Below are positions 5,079-10,043 of a stretch of DNA of 64,000 nt, in pieces. Position 1 is the stretch's first letter, and each line of letters begins with the position of its first letter. Made by a program: the position numbers and the translations under genes. Source of the DNA: Streptomyces sp. ERV7. Its GTDB lineage: Bacteria > Actinomycetota > Actinomycetes > Streptomycetales > Streptomycetaceae. The notes beneath the pieces are model-generated. The model saw only the letters and a list, made by a program, of their open reading frames with translations. It ran no database searches and had not been told where the DNA came from. The DNA is taken from assembly GCF_001653515.1 (NCBI RefSeq), contig NZ_LYOY01000029.1, positions 124,001 to 188,000 on the forward strand. The letters run 5' to 3'.

Positions 5079-5238
5079 TGATGTCGGTCGTCGACGCGAA
5101 GGGCTGAACCGTCACAACGCCGTGGGTGCGGAGCGGTTCCTGGGTATGGGCGGGCCGCGTCCCTATGACGAGGCTCTCGCCCCTGCCTGTTGGGAAACCC
5201 GGGTGCACGGTCTGATCAGCTCGGGGGACACTACGCGC

Positions 5239-6141
5239 ATGATTTCCGACGCCATCCAGACACCGCAGGAACGGGCCCTCGGGCATGTCGCCGGGCTGTC
5301 GTCCGGTCCTCCTGTGGACCCGACGCTGCGGGTCACTCTCAACTTCCACCCGGACCGGCTGGTTGACGGCAAGCCGATCCTGGAGGCCCTGGGTCAGGCG
5401 GGCGTCTACCTCTCGCAGTTCGTCACCGGCACGAGCAACGGAGGCCTGACCGCCCACCCGGGTGGTGACCGGTGGCGGTGGGAGAGCCGGATCTTCGGCG
5501 GAGCCTATGACGACGCGTCACCCCACGACCGGCCCGTCTACGGAGCACTGAACTTCCGCCGCAAGCCGGTCGGTGCGGCGCCCCGCTTCGGTTCGGCCTG
5601 CTTCCAGCTCAATGCCCAGGCGCTGGCGCGGACCACGTTCTGCTACCCGGACAGCTACCTGGAACCCGCCGACTTCGCTACCGCGGAGCGCATGGGTCTG
5701 ATCGAACTCGCTCTGGCTGATGCGCAGGACGCCCTCGACGACTACATCGAGGCGCAGGTGCACGGCGCGGTCCGACTGGACCGCGATGTGGAAGCGCTGG
5801 TCCTGGACCCCTGCTACCAGGGCACGCCCCTTGAGGAGGCGGCCCGTCGTCTTCCGTGCCCGGTGCGATGGCACCCCGGATTCCAGCTCACGGTCGAGGA
5901 ACTCCACCTGCGCCCCGCTTACCGGGGCCAGGAGTATGTCGACCTGGGCGCCCAGATCGCCGTGGGTGGCAGGCTCGACCCGCGCATCGTCGCAGATGCC
6001 GCCCGTACGGGCCGCTATGACCCGCAGGCGGTCAAGAAGGTGTGGCACTACCTCGCACGTTTCGGCGCGCCCGTGCGGCTCTTCGATGGGGAAGCGAACA
6101 ATGGGCGAGAAGACGTGCCCGTGCTCGATGGCCTTCGCTGA
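5239..6141 (+). CDS. DUF3626 domain-containing protein
   Basis: About 300 residues matching DUF3626 as I remember the family: an N-terminal QERALGHVAGL segment, VTLNFHPDRLVDGKPIL near 40, an SGTSNGGL-like turn, YGALNFRRKPVGAAPRFGS around 105, and WHPGFQL near 215. The His/Asp/Arg-rich conserved positions suggest an enzyme, perhaps a hydrolase or ADP-ribosyl-type fold, but no function is established. The open frame extends to 4600 through shadow sequence of marR. ATG 5239 (MISDAIQ) is preferred, ATG 5146 is possible. It stands alone. Confidence 0.75.
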   Translation: MISDAIQTPQERALGHVAGLSSGPPVDPTLRVTLNFHPDRLVDGKPILEALGQAGVYLSQFVTGTSNGGLTAHPGGDRWRWESRIFGGAYDDASPHDRPVYGALNFRRKPVGAAPRFGSACFQLNAQALARTTFCYPDSYLEPADFATAERMGLIELALADAQDALDDYIEAQVHGAVRLDRDVEALVLDPCYQGTPLEEAARRLPCPVRWHPGFQLTVEELHLRPAYRGQEYVDLGAQIAVGGRLDPRIVADAARTGRYDPQAVKKVWHYLARFGAPVRLFDGEANNGREDVPVLDGLR

Positions 6142-6355
6142 CCACCAGACGGTCGCTGGGCCGGTCGCTGTGCGTGCTGGCCGGTCGGGGGTGGCGGGTT
6201 CGCGCTGTATACGCCCGGGGTGAGGAGTACCGGCACCACCTCGCCGTCGGTGGCTGAGGCCGCCTCGGCCACGTCGGTGCTCGTCCAGTGACCTACGAGG
6301 TCGCGCCGCAGCGGGATACGTGCTGTCCTGGAAGAAGCCGCAGGAGTACACGCCC

Positions 6356-7192
6356 ATGCGTCACCACCAGACTTCCGCCCCCGTATCCGCCCGGTCGGCC
6401 GCGCCGACCGGAGCGGGCGGGGGCCTGCTGCCGAAGCGGGATCTCGCCGCCGCCTGGTTCCTGGTCGTACTGATCGCGGTGCCCGCATGGGCGCTGACGA
6501 TCGGGCAGGCCCGGGACATGGGGGTCGAGCCGGGCACGATGGGGATGGCGCTGCCGCTGTTCCTGCTGCTGTGGGTGACGATGATGGCGGCCATGATGCT
6601 GCCGTCGATGGCGCCGGTGGCCATCACATGGGTGCGGGGGATCGGTCGGCAGTCCTCGGGCTGGGCACGGACCCTGCGCACCGTGGAGTTCGTGGGTGGG
6701 TATCTGCTGGTGTGGACCGCCTTCGGACTGCTCGCCTACGGAGCCCTGGCCCTCACCGGGGGCCTGGTGGACGACCATCCCACCGCCGGACGCTGGATCG
6801 GGGCGGTGTCCTTCCTGCTCGCGGGCCTGTATCAGCTCGGCCCCCTCAAGTACGTCTGTCTGCGGCACTGCCGCGACCCCATGAGCCACCTGGTGCGCTA
6901 CGCCGGGTTCCGGCGGCCGGCCCGCGACCTTCGGGTGGGTGTCCATCACGGCGCCTACTGTGTCGGCTGCTGTGCGGGACTGATGGTCGTCCTCGTTCCC
7001 CTCGGGGTGATGAACGTGGCGGCGATGGCCGGACTGGCCGTGGTGATCTTCGTGGAGAAGCTGTGGTCCCATGGCCCGCTGCTCGCCCGGGTCGTGGGCG
7101 TCGCGTTTCTCGTACTGGCCGTACTCGCCCCGTTCCAGGACTGGCTGCTGCCGGGGTTGCAGGGGTCGATGCCGTCGATGGGCGGTATGTGA
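6356..7192 (+). CDS. DUF2182 predicted metal-binding membrane protein
   Basis: 278 residues with six or seven membrane helices. Conserved elements are WVTMMAAMMLPSMAP (Met-rich helix, about 75-90), LGPLKYVCLRHCRDPMSHL (about 160-180) and HHGAYCVGCCAGLM (about 200-213). Clustered Met, His and Cys at membrane surfaces are why the family is described as metal-binding; no transport reaction is established. GGAG at 6343-6346 fixes the ATG at 6356. The gene converges, with one base between stops, on a DUF1326 gene, a family that often neighbours DUF2182. Inference: the two act together on a soft metal. Confidence 0.82.
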   Translation: MRHHQTSAPVSARSAAPTGAGGGLLPKRDLAAAWFLVVLIAVPAWALTIGQARDMGVEPGTMGMALPLFLLLWVTMMAAMMLPSMAPVAITWVRGIGRQSSGWARTLRTVEFVGGYLLVWTAFGLLAYGALALTGGLVDDHPTAGRWIGAVSFLLAGLYQLGPLKYVCLRHCRDPMSHLVRYAGFRRPARDLRVGVHHGAYCVGCCAGLMVVLVPLGVMNVAAMAGLAVVIFVEKLWSHGPLLARVVGVAFLVLAVLAPFQDWLLPGLQGSMPSMGGM

Positions 7193-7193
7193 C

Positions 7194-7808
7194 TCACCGG
7201 CCTGTCGCAACGGTCTCCGCGCTACTGAAGACGTAGCCGGCCGTCTCGCCGTACGACGCCTCGTAGCTCAGCCCGAAGGCATCGGACCGACCGGAGGTCC
7301 TGCCGACTTCGAATTCGGGCGCGAACCCGAACATGGCGTTCTTGATCTTTGTCGAGCTGCCGTCGGGCCCGGTGAGCGGCTCGTAGGAGAGTTCCGTCCG
7401 GCCCTCGACCGTAAGGCCGGGACTGTCCCCGCCCGTGAGGGCCACCCTCGCCCGCTCCATGCCCAGGTACTCGCCGTAGAACTGGGACAGCTGGCCGAAC
7501 GGTCCGCCTTCGCGGCCGGACAGGATGCGTTCCAGGCCCTCGGCCTGCTCGTCGCTGGCCGCGCTGTCCACGACGATCCCGACCTTCCAGTTGCCGGAGG
7601 TCAGATTGGAGGGGAAGTGGTTGTAGAACGCGAAGTCCACGTCGGACAGGTCCAGGTCGTCCAGGTTCCCGTCCGCCACATGGAACACGGCGGTGCCGAG
7701 GCACTCGGTCCCGCCCTTGGCGTCCCGTGGCTGGCCGTCGTACGGACAGCTGCACAACACCGCGCAAGAGCAACCGGCCACATACGTGCCGGAAATTGTC
7801 CACGACAT
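7194..7808 (-). CDS. DUF1326 protein with CxCxxxCxC motif (first copy)
   Basis: 204 residues, soluble. The N-terminus has GCSCAVLCSCPY, a CxCxxxCxC cluster at residues 13-21 that could bind a thiophilic metal such as copper. The rest is the beta-rich DUF1326 domain (WKVGIVVDSAASDEQAEGL, then a C-terminal FGLSYEASYGETAGY segment). The function of the family is unknown. It is convergent with the DUF2182 gene and divergent from the permease at 7938, with a 129-base shared control region. A second DUF1326 gene lies 1.3 kb away, so this locus carries two diverged copies. Confidence 0.8.
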   Translation of the reverse strand: MSWTISGTYVAGCSCAVLCSCPYDGQPRDAKGGTECLGTAVFHVADGNLDDLDLSDVDFAFYNHFPSNLTSGNWKVGIVVDSAASDEQAEGLERILSGREGGPFGQLSQFYGEYLGMERARVALTGGDSPGLTVEGRTELSYEPLTGPDGSSTKIKNAMFGFAPEFEVGRTSGRSDAFGLSYEASYGETAGYVFSSAETVATGR

Positions 7809-7845
7809 GACTGCTCCCCTCTTCCATGGTGATGGCGGCGAGCGT

Positions 7846-7886
7846 CGCCTGTACTTTTACGCTAGACCTGTCAAATTGGCCTGTAA
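7846..7886. promoter_or_regulatory. Shared upstream region of DUF1326 and permease genes with CCTGT boxes
   Basis: The divergent interval contains three direct copies of CCTGT (starting at 7848, 7867 and 7880), the last two extended to CCTGTCAA and CCTGTAAA. The local sequence is more AT-rich than its surroundings. A regulator binding direct repeats is possible; no consensus is recognised. Confidence 0.3.
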
Positions 7887-7937
7887 ACGGCGTTTCCTGG
7901 CAAACGCTGGAATCCTGCGCCGAAGGGCAGGCACACT

Positions 7938-9134
7938 GTGGAAGCGATCGGCCACGCGTTGTCCATCGCCGGGTCGATGACCTGGGAAGTCACCTGGGCG
8001 CTGATCCTCGGCTTCGCCTTGTCGGCCGTAGTGCAGGCGGTGGTGCGCCGCTCGACCGTCGTCCGGCTGCTGGGCGATGACCGGCCGCGCACGCTCGCCC
8101 TGTCGGCCGGCCTCGGGGCGGCCTCGTCGTCCTGCTCGTACGCGGCCGTGGCGCTGGCCCGTTCGCTGTTCCGCAAGGGCGCGGACTTCACCGCGGCGAT
8201 GGCGTTCGAGATCGCCTCCACCAACCTGGTGGTGGAGCTCGGCGTGATCCTCGCACTGCTGATGGGCTGGCAGTTCACGGCCGCCGAGTTCGCAGGCGGG
8301 CCGATCATGATCGTCGTACTCGCCGTGCTGTTCCGTCTCTTCCTGCGCGAGCGGCTGCTGACACAGGCGCGGGAGCAGGCCGAGCGTGGGATCGCGGGAT
8401 CGATGGAAGGCCATGCGGCGATGGACATGTCGGTGCGGGGGGAGGGCGGTTTCGCGCGCCGCTTGTTCTCCCGCGACGGCTTCACGTCTGTGTCCCATAT
8501 CTTCGTCATGGAGTGGGCCGCGGTGGTGCGGGACCTGGTGGCGGGGCTGCTGATCGCGGGGGCGATCGCGGCCTGGGTGCCGGACGACTTCTGGCGCACG
8601 TTCTTCCTGGAAGGGCATCCGCTCGCCGCCAAGCTGATCGGCCCGCTGGTCGGGCCATGGGTGGCGGTGGCCACGTTCGTCTGCTCGATCGGCAACGTCC
8701 CACTGGCCGTGGTGCTGTGGAAGGGCGGCATCAGCTTCGGCGGTGTGGTCGCCTTCATCTTCGCGGACCTGTTGATCCTGCCGATCCTGAACATCTACCG
8801 GAAGTACTACGGCGCCCGGATGGCCGTCTACCTGCTGGTCACCTTCTTCGTCGCGATGGCCGTCGCCGGATACGCGGTCGAGTTCGCCTTCGGTGGACTG
8901 GGGCTGATTCCCGACCAGGCCGATGCGACGATCCCCGAGGAGGGGGTCGCCTGGAACTACACGACGTGGCTCAACATCGCCTTCCTGTTGCTGGCCGCGA
9001 CGTTGCTCGTACGGTTCTGGCGCACCGGCGGCCCGGCCATGCTGCGGATGATGGGTGGCACACCCGGAGACGGCTCACCCGGAGACGGCGAACAGGGGCA
9101 CGGGCCCGCCTCCGGGGCATCGGGTCCGCGCTAG
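7938..9134 (+). CDS. Permease of the ArsP/YraQ (COG0701) type
   Basis: 398 residues with about eight to ten membrane helices in two related halves. The first half holds GAASSSCSYAAVALARSLFRKG and the second FVCSIGNVPLAVVLWKGG; paired Cys/Ser-Gly motifs facing each other are characteristic of this permease family, whose ArsP members export trivalent organoarsenicals. A cytoplasmic loop (about 145-175) rich in Met, His and charged residues separates the halves. The start is GTG 7938. The C-terminus has a small repeat, GDGSPGDGE. It is flanked on both sides by DUF1326 genes and overlaps the second by four bases at the stops. The substrate is unknown; a metal or metalloid is inferred. Confidence 0.78.
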   Translation: MEAIGHALSIAGSMTWEVTWALILGFALSAVVQAVVRRSTVVRLLGDDRPRTLALSAGLGAASSSCSYAAVALARSLFRKGADFTAAMAFEIASTNLVVELGVILALLMGWQFTAAEFAGGPIMIVVLAVLFRLFLRERLLTQAREQAERGIAGSMEGHAAMDMSVRGEGGFARRLFSRDGFTSVSHIFVMEWAAVVRDLVAGLLIAGAIAAWVPDDFWRTFFLEGHPLAAKLIGPLVGPWVAVATFVCSIGNVPLAVVLWKGGISFGGVVAFIFADLLILPILNIYRKYYGARMAVYLLVTFFVAMAVAGYAVEFAFGGLGLIPDQADATIPEEGVAWNYTTWLNIAFLLLAATLLVRFWRTGGPAMLRMMGGTPGDGSPGDGEQGHGPASGASGPR

Positions 9135-9787
9135 TCGGGACCGCTCCAGTCGAACGGGAAGTATTTGCTCGACTTCCCCGAGCGTTCCCACGAGAAGCCG
9201 AACGCCTCGGCGCGGTCGGCAGTGGCCCGCCCCCAGGTGGCGACCTGGCCCGGTCCGACCTCGGCGCCCGGGGCATTGTGGACCTGGACGCGTGCGCCGT
9301 CCGGTGTCGTGGGGCCGGTGAGCGCCTCGGCGGTGGCCGTGACCTTGCCGGGAATCTCGGCCCGCCAGCTGCCGAGGTCCTCGTCGATCTCGACGCGGAT
9401 GGGAACGAAGTCCATGCCGCGCATCTCGGGGTGGAACATCTCCCCGAACCGCGCCGGCCATCCGCCCGCCTCACCGCCGAAGATGGCACCGAGTGCACCG
9501 CGCTGCTGCTCGTCGGCACGCTCGTCCAGGAATACCGCGGCGTACGCGTCGGTGTGTTCGCCGGCCCAGACATTGCCGACGAAGGAACCGAGCATCAGGA
9601 CGTTGAGATCGTCCAGCGAAACGTCGCCGAAGCGGCCTTCCCGGATGTGCCAGGCCAGCACGCCTTCGCAGTCGCCGTAGGTCGGGGGCTGGGCAAACGT
9701 GCAGGGACACGGTATGGCGCACTTGCACACATCGAACCAATCACCGGTCAGGCGCCAGTGTGTACCGGTGGTGACCTGTTCTGTCAT
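9131..9787 (-). CDS. DUF1326 protein with CxCxxxCxC motif (second copy)
   Basis: 218 residues. The start ATG at 9787 is decided by the strong GGAGGGA ribosome-binding site a few bases upstream. Residues near 20 read VCKCAIPCPCTF, again CxCxxxCxC, with an additional Cys in YGDCEG shortly after. The body follows DUF1326: LNVLMLGSFVGNVW, EIDEDLGSWRAEIPG and a C-terminal EAFGFSWERSG segment that matches the first copy only loosely, so the duplication is old or the two came separately. Its stop overlaps that of the permease. The same possible metal-binding role is inferred. Confidence 0.8.
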   Translation of the reverse strand: MTEQVTTGTHWRLTGDWFDVCKCAIPCPCTFAQPPTYGDCEGVLAWHIREGRFGDVSLDDLNVLMLGSFVGNVWAGEHTDAYAAVFLDERADEQQRGALGAIFGGEAGGWPARFGEMFHPEMRGMDFVPIRVEIDEDLGSWRAEIPGKVTATAEALTGPTTPDGARVQVHNAPGAEVGPGQVATWGRATADRAEAFGFSWERSGKSSKYFPFDWSGPD

Positions 9788-10043
9788 CTCGCTTCCCTCC
9801 TGCCGAGCCCCGGGGGCCCATTCGGAGTGGCGAGGCCGCGGGTCTTCCCCAGCCCGCTCCCGGGCCGGCAAGGCGGCCTCCCTTCCAGCTTGCACCTCAC
9901 GCCTCGGTTACCGGCAGGGATGAGGGGAACAGCGGCCGGTACTTCAGTGCCTTCGGGGGATATGGGACAGCGGGGTCCGTGGAGTGAGGCCGCGGGCACA
10001 CCCCGGGGTTTCGCCGAAGTGCATGTGCCCCTACGGTGGCCCC

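Follow-up and report, generated by a model that had tools for sequence, protein, structure and literature searches.

Among described systems, the closest to the one considered here is that of Marinomonas mediterranea PpoB2, which takes part in passing copper to the tyrosinase PpoB1 but to none of the other copper oxidases, is encoded in one operon with this client, and was the first COG5486 protein given a role (PMC2855505). Pfam's present name for the family DUF2182 (PF09948) is PpoB2, 'Copper chaperone', and the statement in a preliminary description of the locus analyzed here that DUF2182 has no assigned function is therefore outdated; the name DUF2182 itself was not found in use in the open literature by name, COG or Pfam number. 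The locus is a block of four genes in Streptomyces sp. ERV7, encoding a PpoB2 protein, two DUF1326 proteins (PF07040; DUF1326a and DUF1326b) and a permease, and it lies in a 64,000-nucleotide stretch of contig NZ_LYOY01000029.1 (positions 124,001 to 188,000), referred to below as the window. The Pfam copy used attaches no function to DUF1326, and no mention of it by name was found in the open literature, where other DUF names do turn up. The real unit within the block is PpoB2 with DUF1326b, whose genes adjoin in many bacteria and in some haloarchaea. We favor, at a probability of roughly 0.55, the reading that these two proteins form a Cu(I)-handling module, to which DUF1326a adds another copy of the soluble component and which the permease, a separate exporter, has joined at some loci.

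The window PpoB2 (6356 to 7192, plus strand; 278 amino acids) belongs to the same Pfam family as the Marinomonas protein (E 8.9e-53; 179.5 bits, cut-off 28.7) and is an integral membrane protein with candidate copper ligands. The two are likened by family only and differ in their partners, since a tyrosinase client shares the operon in Marinomonas (PMC2855505), whereas here the partner is a DUF1326 protein and no tyrosinase lies near. That partner, DUF1326b (9131 to 9787, minus strand; 218 amino acids; Pfam E 4.5e-60), was followed in a sample of 296 genomes of the phylum and another of 159 of the genus Streptomyces, both drawn without correction for kinship. DUF1326 was found in 53 genomes of the phylum sample and PpoB2 in 62, with both in 48 (Fisher p 1e-36); the corresponding numbers in the genus sample were 42, 44 and 39 (p 5e-28). 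The co-conservation of the two families, as anticipated in the preliminary description, is thus beyond chance. Physical linkage was also close, with 59 of 76 DUF1326 matches in the phylum sample at most 1.5 kb from a PpoB2 match; the 17 that were not include one match at a contig end and the window's own DUF1326b, from which PpoB2 is separated by the two extra genes.

Linkage was equally evident among the best 80 of 355 relatives of DUF1326b. PpoB2 was present in the stretch read for 73 of them, within 500 bases in 68 and within 1 kb in 71, with two of the 73 matches being partial (L104, L110); two of the seven relatives lacking it lay on short stretches (L125, L144). The two genes are neighbors in all four relative arrangements. 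No strong recurrent third gene was detected beside the pair, the largest family accounting for four flanking proteins among the 80 relatives, and the phylum sample was alike. These scans covered 134 of 152 flanking proteins for the relatives and 115 of 119 for the phylum loci (78 of 80 for the permease loci described below), the omitted proteins being mostly very long or very short, and the gene calls came from a simple script, so that some are in wrong frames. No relatives of DUF1326b were found in viral contigs. Two individual neighborhoods may be recorded: a cluster of related flavin adenine dinucleotide-dependent oxidase genes (berberine-bridge type by Pfam) lies near the pair in five loci of one actinomycete family (L024-L028), and on Cupriavidus necator pHG1 a small GDCCVxC-domain (seleno)protein, possibly a third partner, follows the pair (L067, 8491-8718).

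Additional ties between PpoB2 and DUF1326b were found upstream of their genes. About 105 nucleotides before DUF1326b are conserved, the sequence further upstream is not, and because the conserved stretch closes with a GGAGG at a suitable distance of 8 bases from the ATG, it can be regarded as a leader and not as coding sequence (9788 to 9895, minus strand). An exact anchor of this leader was present in 53 of the 80 upstream regions. The predicted structure consists of a stem P1 (GAGGCCGC with GCGGTCTC), a hairpin P2 and a stem P3 in which CUCC pairs with GGAG in the ribosome-binding site; similar P1 and P3 stems were given by RNAalifold alone. In an alignment of 46 of the 80 regions (window plus 79 loci; A9), the pairs were kept in 95.3% of cells, compared to 94.0% in shuffles and at most 52% in slid versions, and 13 cells showed double changes vs 3.5 in shuffles, although these counts lean towards the conserved form because near-identical, deletion-bearing and diverged copies were left out. 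The version slid by -1 column had seven pairs with a double change vs five in the leader, but nine such cells vs 13. What speaks for the putative structure is conservation and covariation, the folding energy of the window copy being ordinary relative to shuffles (z -0.5). A covariance model (R1) recovered the leader in 15 of the 159 genus genomes, 42 of which have DUF1326, once in each and always directly before DUF1326b, under strict filters that may miss weak copies. Rfam 15 gave no matches in the window at gathering score, and over 9700-10000 at an E-value setting it gave only two matches (E 1.2 and 3.8), both falling well short of the gathering score. The leader, so folded, can hide the ribosome-binding site of DUF1326b.

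At the 5' end of the window's leader lies a motif, GTGC-N2..4-CTGGAAG, that precedes 24 of the 80 DUF1326b genes and 21 of the 72 PpoB2 genes and was found before none of five DUF1326a genes and none of five permease genes. It occurs 49 times in total in 2.33 Mb when both strands are counted. The window has it only twice, at 6320 before PpoB2 (GTGC-N4-CTGGAAG, 6320 to 6334, plus strand) and at 9882 before DUF1326b (GTGC-N3-CTGGAAG, 9882 to 9895, minus strand). Since the relatives are kin, these counts are not independent.

The remaining two genes of the block behave differently. DUF1326a (7194 to 7808, minus strand; 204 amino acids; Pfam E 9.8e-38) is an accessory paralogue; the two DUF1326 proteins score 203.2 and 130.5 bits against a cut-off of 25. 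The permease (7938 to 9134, plus strand; 398 amino acids) is of the ArsP_1 or COG0701 type (PF03773; E 5.7e-77; 259.2 bits, cut-off 32.3). All four open reading frames of the preliminary description are in place, with their families above the Pfam cut-offs. PpoB2 and DUF1326a are convergent and 1 base apart, and the permease and DUF1326b overlap by 4 bases, with 129 bases between the two pairs. The tight packing of 1 to 4 bases that had been emphasized is true of the window, but it is not conserved: the five convergent PpoB2/DUF1326a cases have gaps of 1, 46, 162, 263 and 277 bases and three permease/DUF1326b cases have spacings of -4, 100 and 372 bases. It is a local accident. A frame with a DUF3626 match (5200-6138, plus strand) lies directly upstream of the block with nothing tying it to the system, and PADLOC identified no defence family.

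Close homologues of the permease (E below 1e-100) were present in 25 of the 159 genus genomes. Eight of these 25 also carried DUF1326, in line with the chance expectation (Fisher p 0.47), so no co-occurrence of these two families emerged; PpoB2 was found with the permease in 11 of the 25 (p 0.055). The permease adjoins DUF1326 and PpoB2 in its own genome and in genomes G413 and G340, with a broken copy in G393 and a remnant in G428, the last being outside the 25 counted. Adjacency in four or five genomes exceeds chance, and the linkage of the permease is therefore real but recent or loose. The permease is broken or truncated in three relatives (L045, L046, L077), and absent from some others, where the DUF1326 and PpoB2 genes persist. 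Among the 80 relatives, two (L133, L137) have PpoB2, DUF1326b and the permease without DUF1326a, and four others (L122, L123, where it is a fragment, L146 and L135) have a DUF1326a-like gene but no permease; in genome G386, two DUF1326 genes lie near each other without a permease. Altogether, the permease is a guest, distributed across the genus independently of DUF1326, and DUF1326a looks like a further copy of the soluble partner, extra in a minority of relatives.

These observations bear on the proposal that the block is one four-gene system of dedicated pairs, in which PpoB2 would be served by DUF1326a and the permease by DUF1326b as two soluble chaperones, each with its own membrane partner. 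In the window, the order of the genes and their dense packing would fit such an arrangement, and the whole block recurs in window order in two of the 80 relatives, intact in L080 and, in L077, with the permease truncated. However, DUF1326b, which was assigned to the permease, is close to PpoB2 in 73 of the 80 relatives and nearly always without a permease, the permease and DUF1326 do not co-occur, the packing is not kept, and the shared motif stands before no gene of the block other than PpoB2 and DUF1326b. Linkage, co-occurrence and motif largely refute the dedicated pairs, and we consider that arrangement highly improbable. A separate role of the permease is hinted at by 20 of its loci away from the pair (L003-L022), where DUF4142 (four) and DUF305 (two) proteins were found among the 78 flanking proteins.

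Both DUF1326 proteins carry the N-terminal CxCxxxCxC cluster noted in the preliminary description, together with a fifth cysteine (C13-C21 and C36 in DUF1326a). Six residues of DUF1326 (C21, C23, C27, C29, C40 and D88) do not vary in 16 diverse sequences or in 47 mostly close ones, and the same five cysteines and D88 were present in 23 of 23 sequences from Actinomycetota, alpha- and betaproteobacteria and haloarchaea. The cysteines are thus conserved family-wide. Ligand-type residues of PpoB2 are conserved as well. All of 36 phylum homologues, in an alignment numbered +12 relative to the window protein, share M76-x3-M80-M81, C168, C172, H198, C202, C205, C206, M210, E234 and K235, and all twelve were again invariant in the 38 rows of a second alignment (A6). 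Among 23 pieces from other replicons, 18 were full-length PpoB2 proteins, and all of these had M76, M80, M81, C168, C172, C202, C206 and E234, with H198, C205, M210 and K235 varying. Three mycobacterial plasmid copies without DUF1326 nearby have S205 and Y198, and because they are related they count as one hint and not as three; Y198 also occurs in one haloarchaeal PpoB2 that does have DUF1326. For the permease, 23 of the 24 rows aligned have Cys66 and 23 have Cys249, with a gap in the remaining one. Ctr1-type copper transporters carry an MxxxM motif within a membrane helix, and PpoB2 has MxxxM in a helix too, an analogy of motif only. A metal-handling system as the likely class is supported, as are the family-wide cysteines and the co-conservation of DUF1326 and PpoB2.

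The structure of DUF1326b was modeled from 47 sequences, with a mean predicted local distance difference test (pLDDT) score of 85.8 and a predicted template modeling score of 0.85. Foldseek matched the model to acetoacetate decarboxylase 3cmb at E 2.6e-5, but with template modeling scores of 0.34-0.40 and a root-mean-square deviation (rmsd) of 13.6. By VIA-align 2 the predicted fold resembled acetoacetate decarboxylase-like proteins at Z 10.5 to 11.3, including MppR (4jmd; Z 11.3, rmsd 4.0, 169 residues aligned), acetoacetate decarboxylase (3bgt; Z 10.5, rmsd 3.6, 166 aligned) and Swit_4259 (5upb), and the next structure group (25-phosphosteroid lyase, CghA, kievitone hydratase) followed at Z of about 8. 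Since best Z values of 7-8 are common in this program for models without relatives, a full-length acetoacetate decarboxylase-like barrel is likely, not certain. No sequence relation to acetoacetate decarboxylase was detected by Pfam to E 10 or by a profile search of the PDB, and PDB searches with single proteins and profiles yielded no credible relative. The acetoacetate decarboxylase superfamily is characterized by a catalytic lysine. DUF1326 differs in having no invariant or nearly invariant lysine among the 16 diverse sequences, and five cysteines instead; the model places these after the first strand (11-21) and before the second (39-53), where its confidence is lower (72-75). No paper on relatives of acetoacetate decarboxylase that bear metals or cysteines was found in the open literature. 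The PpoB2 model is helical and of low confidence (mean pLDDT 69.8), and it gave no usable fold match.

This predicted fold is the point at which a different role for DUF1326 has to be weighed, namely that it is the client and not the carrier, with PpoB2 loading copper or another metal into a DUF1326 protein that would itself be a metalloenzyme or a metal store on a decarboxylase-like fold. By analogy, the operon partner of Marinomonas PpoB2 is its client (PMC2855505), and the constant partner here is DUF1326; the closest folds, moreover, are those of enzymes. Against a metalloenzyme or store, the DUF1326 residues invariant beyond glycine in the 16 diverse sequences are the five cysteines and D88 only, with no lysine, arginine, glutamate or histidine to mark an active site, and the cysteines are grouped in the less confident stretch between the first two strands. 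We regard the client role in place of the carrier role as unlikely.

Evidence on the identity of the metal came from 27 annotated plasmid regions, of which six have copper or heavy-metal genes near the family, a count that has no background rate for metal-gene proximity beside it. DUF1326 lies between copC and a metal-sensitive regulator on a M. gallinarum plasmid; genes for an HMA protein, a P-type ATPase and a metal-sensitive regulator are nearby in Rhodococcus WAY2, where PpoB2 is broken; and a CusA/CzcA pump is found near the family in Microvirga VF16. The copper islands of mycobacterial plasmids are among the closest known systems, with a PpoB2-family protein beside a metal-sensor gene and a copper ATPase: csoR is divergent from PpoB2 on M. 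avium pMAH135, with a copper ATPase and a multicopper oxidase, and on a M. lentiflavum plasmid, with a copper ATPase, and M. avium pP4-4a has a heavy-metal-responsive regulator and a copper ATPase by PpoB2. They differ from the window in the two residues named above and in having no DUF1326 in the regions read. The gap between csoR and PpoB2 on pMAH135 and the M. lentiflavum plasmid holds a CCCACCC/GGGTGGG dyad, and on pP4-4a a perfect ACCTTCC-N8-GGAAGGT dyad precedes the regulator-PpoB2 pair; we take these dyads to resemble CsoR and CueR sites. The sites upstream of the plasmid PpoB2 genes are at L163 5735-5811, L166 5614-5730 and L165 5337-5457. Sinorhizobium meliloti pSymB and C. necator pHG1 are among the other 21 regions, and in the Haloferax mediterranei region an ArsA-family ATPase gene lies about 2.6 kb off.

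A module for another soft metal or metalloid (Zn, As, Hg, Ag or Cd), exported by the permease, would also be compatible with cysteine-rich sites, which suit many soft metals. The permease is in the ArsP_1 family, and genes for an ArsR-type regulator and arsM are found on M. avium pP4-4a, at least 2.6 kb from PpoB2. Conversely, the conserved Met motif of PpoB2, the copper role published for the Marinomonas protein (PMC2855505) and the CsoR context point to copper. The permease is not co-conserved with DUF1326 and, for all its membership of PF03773 alongside SO_0444, SaoE and ArsP, shows weak similarity to the NCBIfam equivalogs, being far below the cut-offs for the Cu/Zn exporter SO_0444 (53.1 bits, cut-off 300) and for SaoE (50.3, cut-off 325). 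We therefore consider another metal quite unlikely.

According to the copper reading of the PpoB2-DUF1326b pair, DUF1326 would be a soluble protein, no signal peptide being apparent by eye, built on a decarboxylase-like barrel; its five cysteines fall in a 20-residue span between strands one and two and would suit a Cu(I)-thiolate site. Its exchange partner for copper would be PpoB2, which has MxxxMM and Cys ligands on its helices, and the exchange may serve either the loading of cuproproteins or the removal of copper from harm, with DUF1326 as carrier or client and PpoB2 as its membrane partner. The upstream motif shared by the two genes in many strains may coordinate them, and a leader that hides the ribosome site would add control on DUF1326b. 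We infer contact between PpoB2 and DUF1326b, regulation by the leader and the direction of transfer. That copper is the metal in Streptomyces is suggested by analogy, from the one studied member of the PpoB2 family that the literature searches turned up and from the neighborhoods elsewhere.

Several observations weigh against this reading. No copper gene recurs by the pair in Streptomyces or in the phylum sample, and inspection by eye, with no formal control, showed nothing striking in the way of CsoR-type half-sites upstream of the Streptomyces genes. The six plasmid regions with metal genes include three related mycobacterial plasmids, whose PpoB2 proteins have S205 and Y198 and no DUF1326 in the stretch read, and a few plasmid regions carry iron-uptake or siderophore genes instead. 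The exact motif is missing before 56 of the 80 DUF1326b and 51 of the 72 PpoB2 genes, and genome-wide it had 31 matches compared to 35 for a reversed control, so that it is meaningful by position only. Additionally, no tyrosinase is near: the two of the genome itself are on another contig (G000:C1:209949) and about 800 kb off (C29:931252, with PpoB2 at C29:130566). Tyrosinase was present in 121 of the 159 genus genomes, in 39 of the 42 DUF1326 carriers vs 82 of the 117 others, an association (p 0.003) that ignores kinship. Tyrosinase was accordingly rejected as the client, being commoner in DUF1326 carriers but unlinked in the window's own genome.

New in this study are the decarboxylase-like model of DUF1326, the motif shared by PpoB2 and DUF1326b, and the structured leader of DUF1326b. 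A further-reaching proposal is possible rather than probable: DUF1326 may represent a new structural class of copper protein, a decarboxylase-type barrel that has become a Cu(I)-thiolate carrier or client, with PpoB2 as its counterpart in haloarchaea as well as bacteria; in Streptomyces it would be switched by an RNA leader that hides the ribosome site and that may sense copper or the loaded protein. The role of DUF1326 becomes testable through its tie to PpoB2, its five invariant cysteines, its likely fold and the copper-sensor neighborhoods of its partner. If the favored reading is true, PpoB2, known from one tyrosinase system, would commonly be found, in bacteria as well as archaea, next to a partner of another kind.

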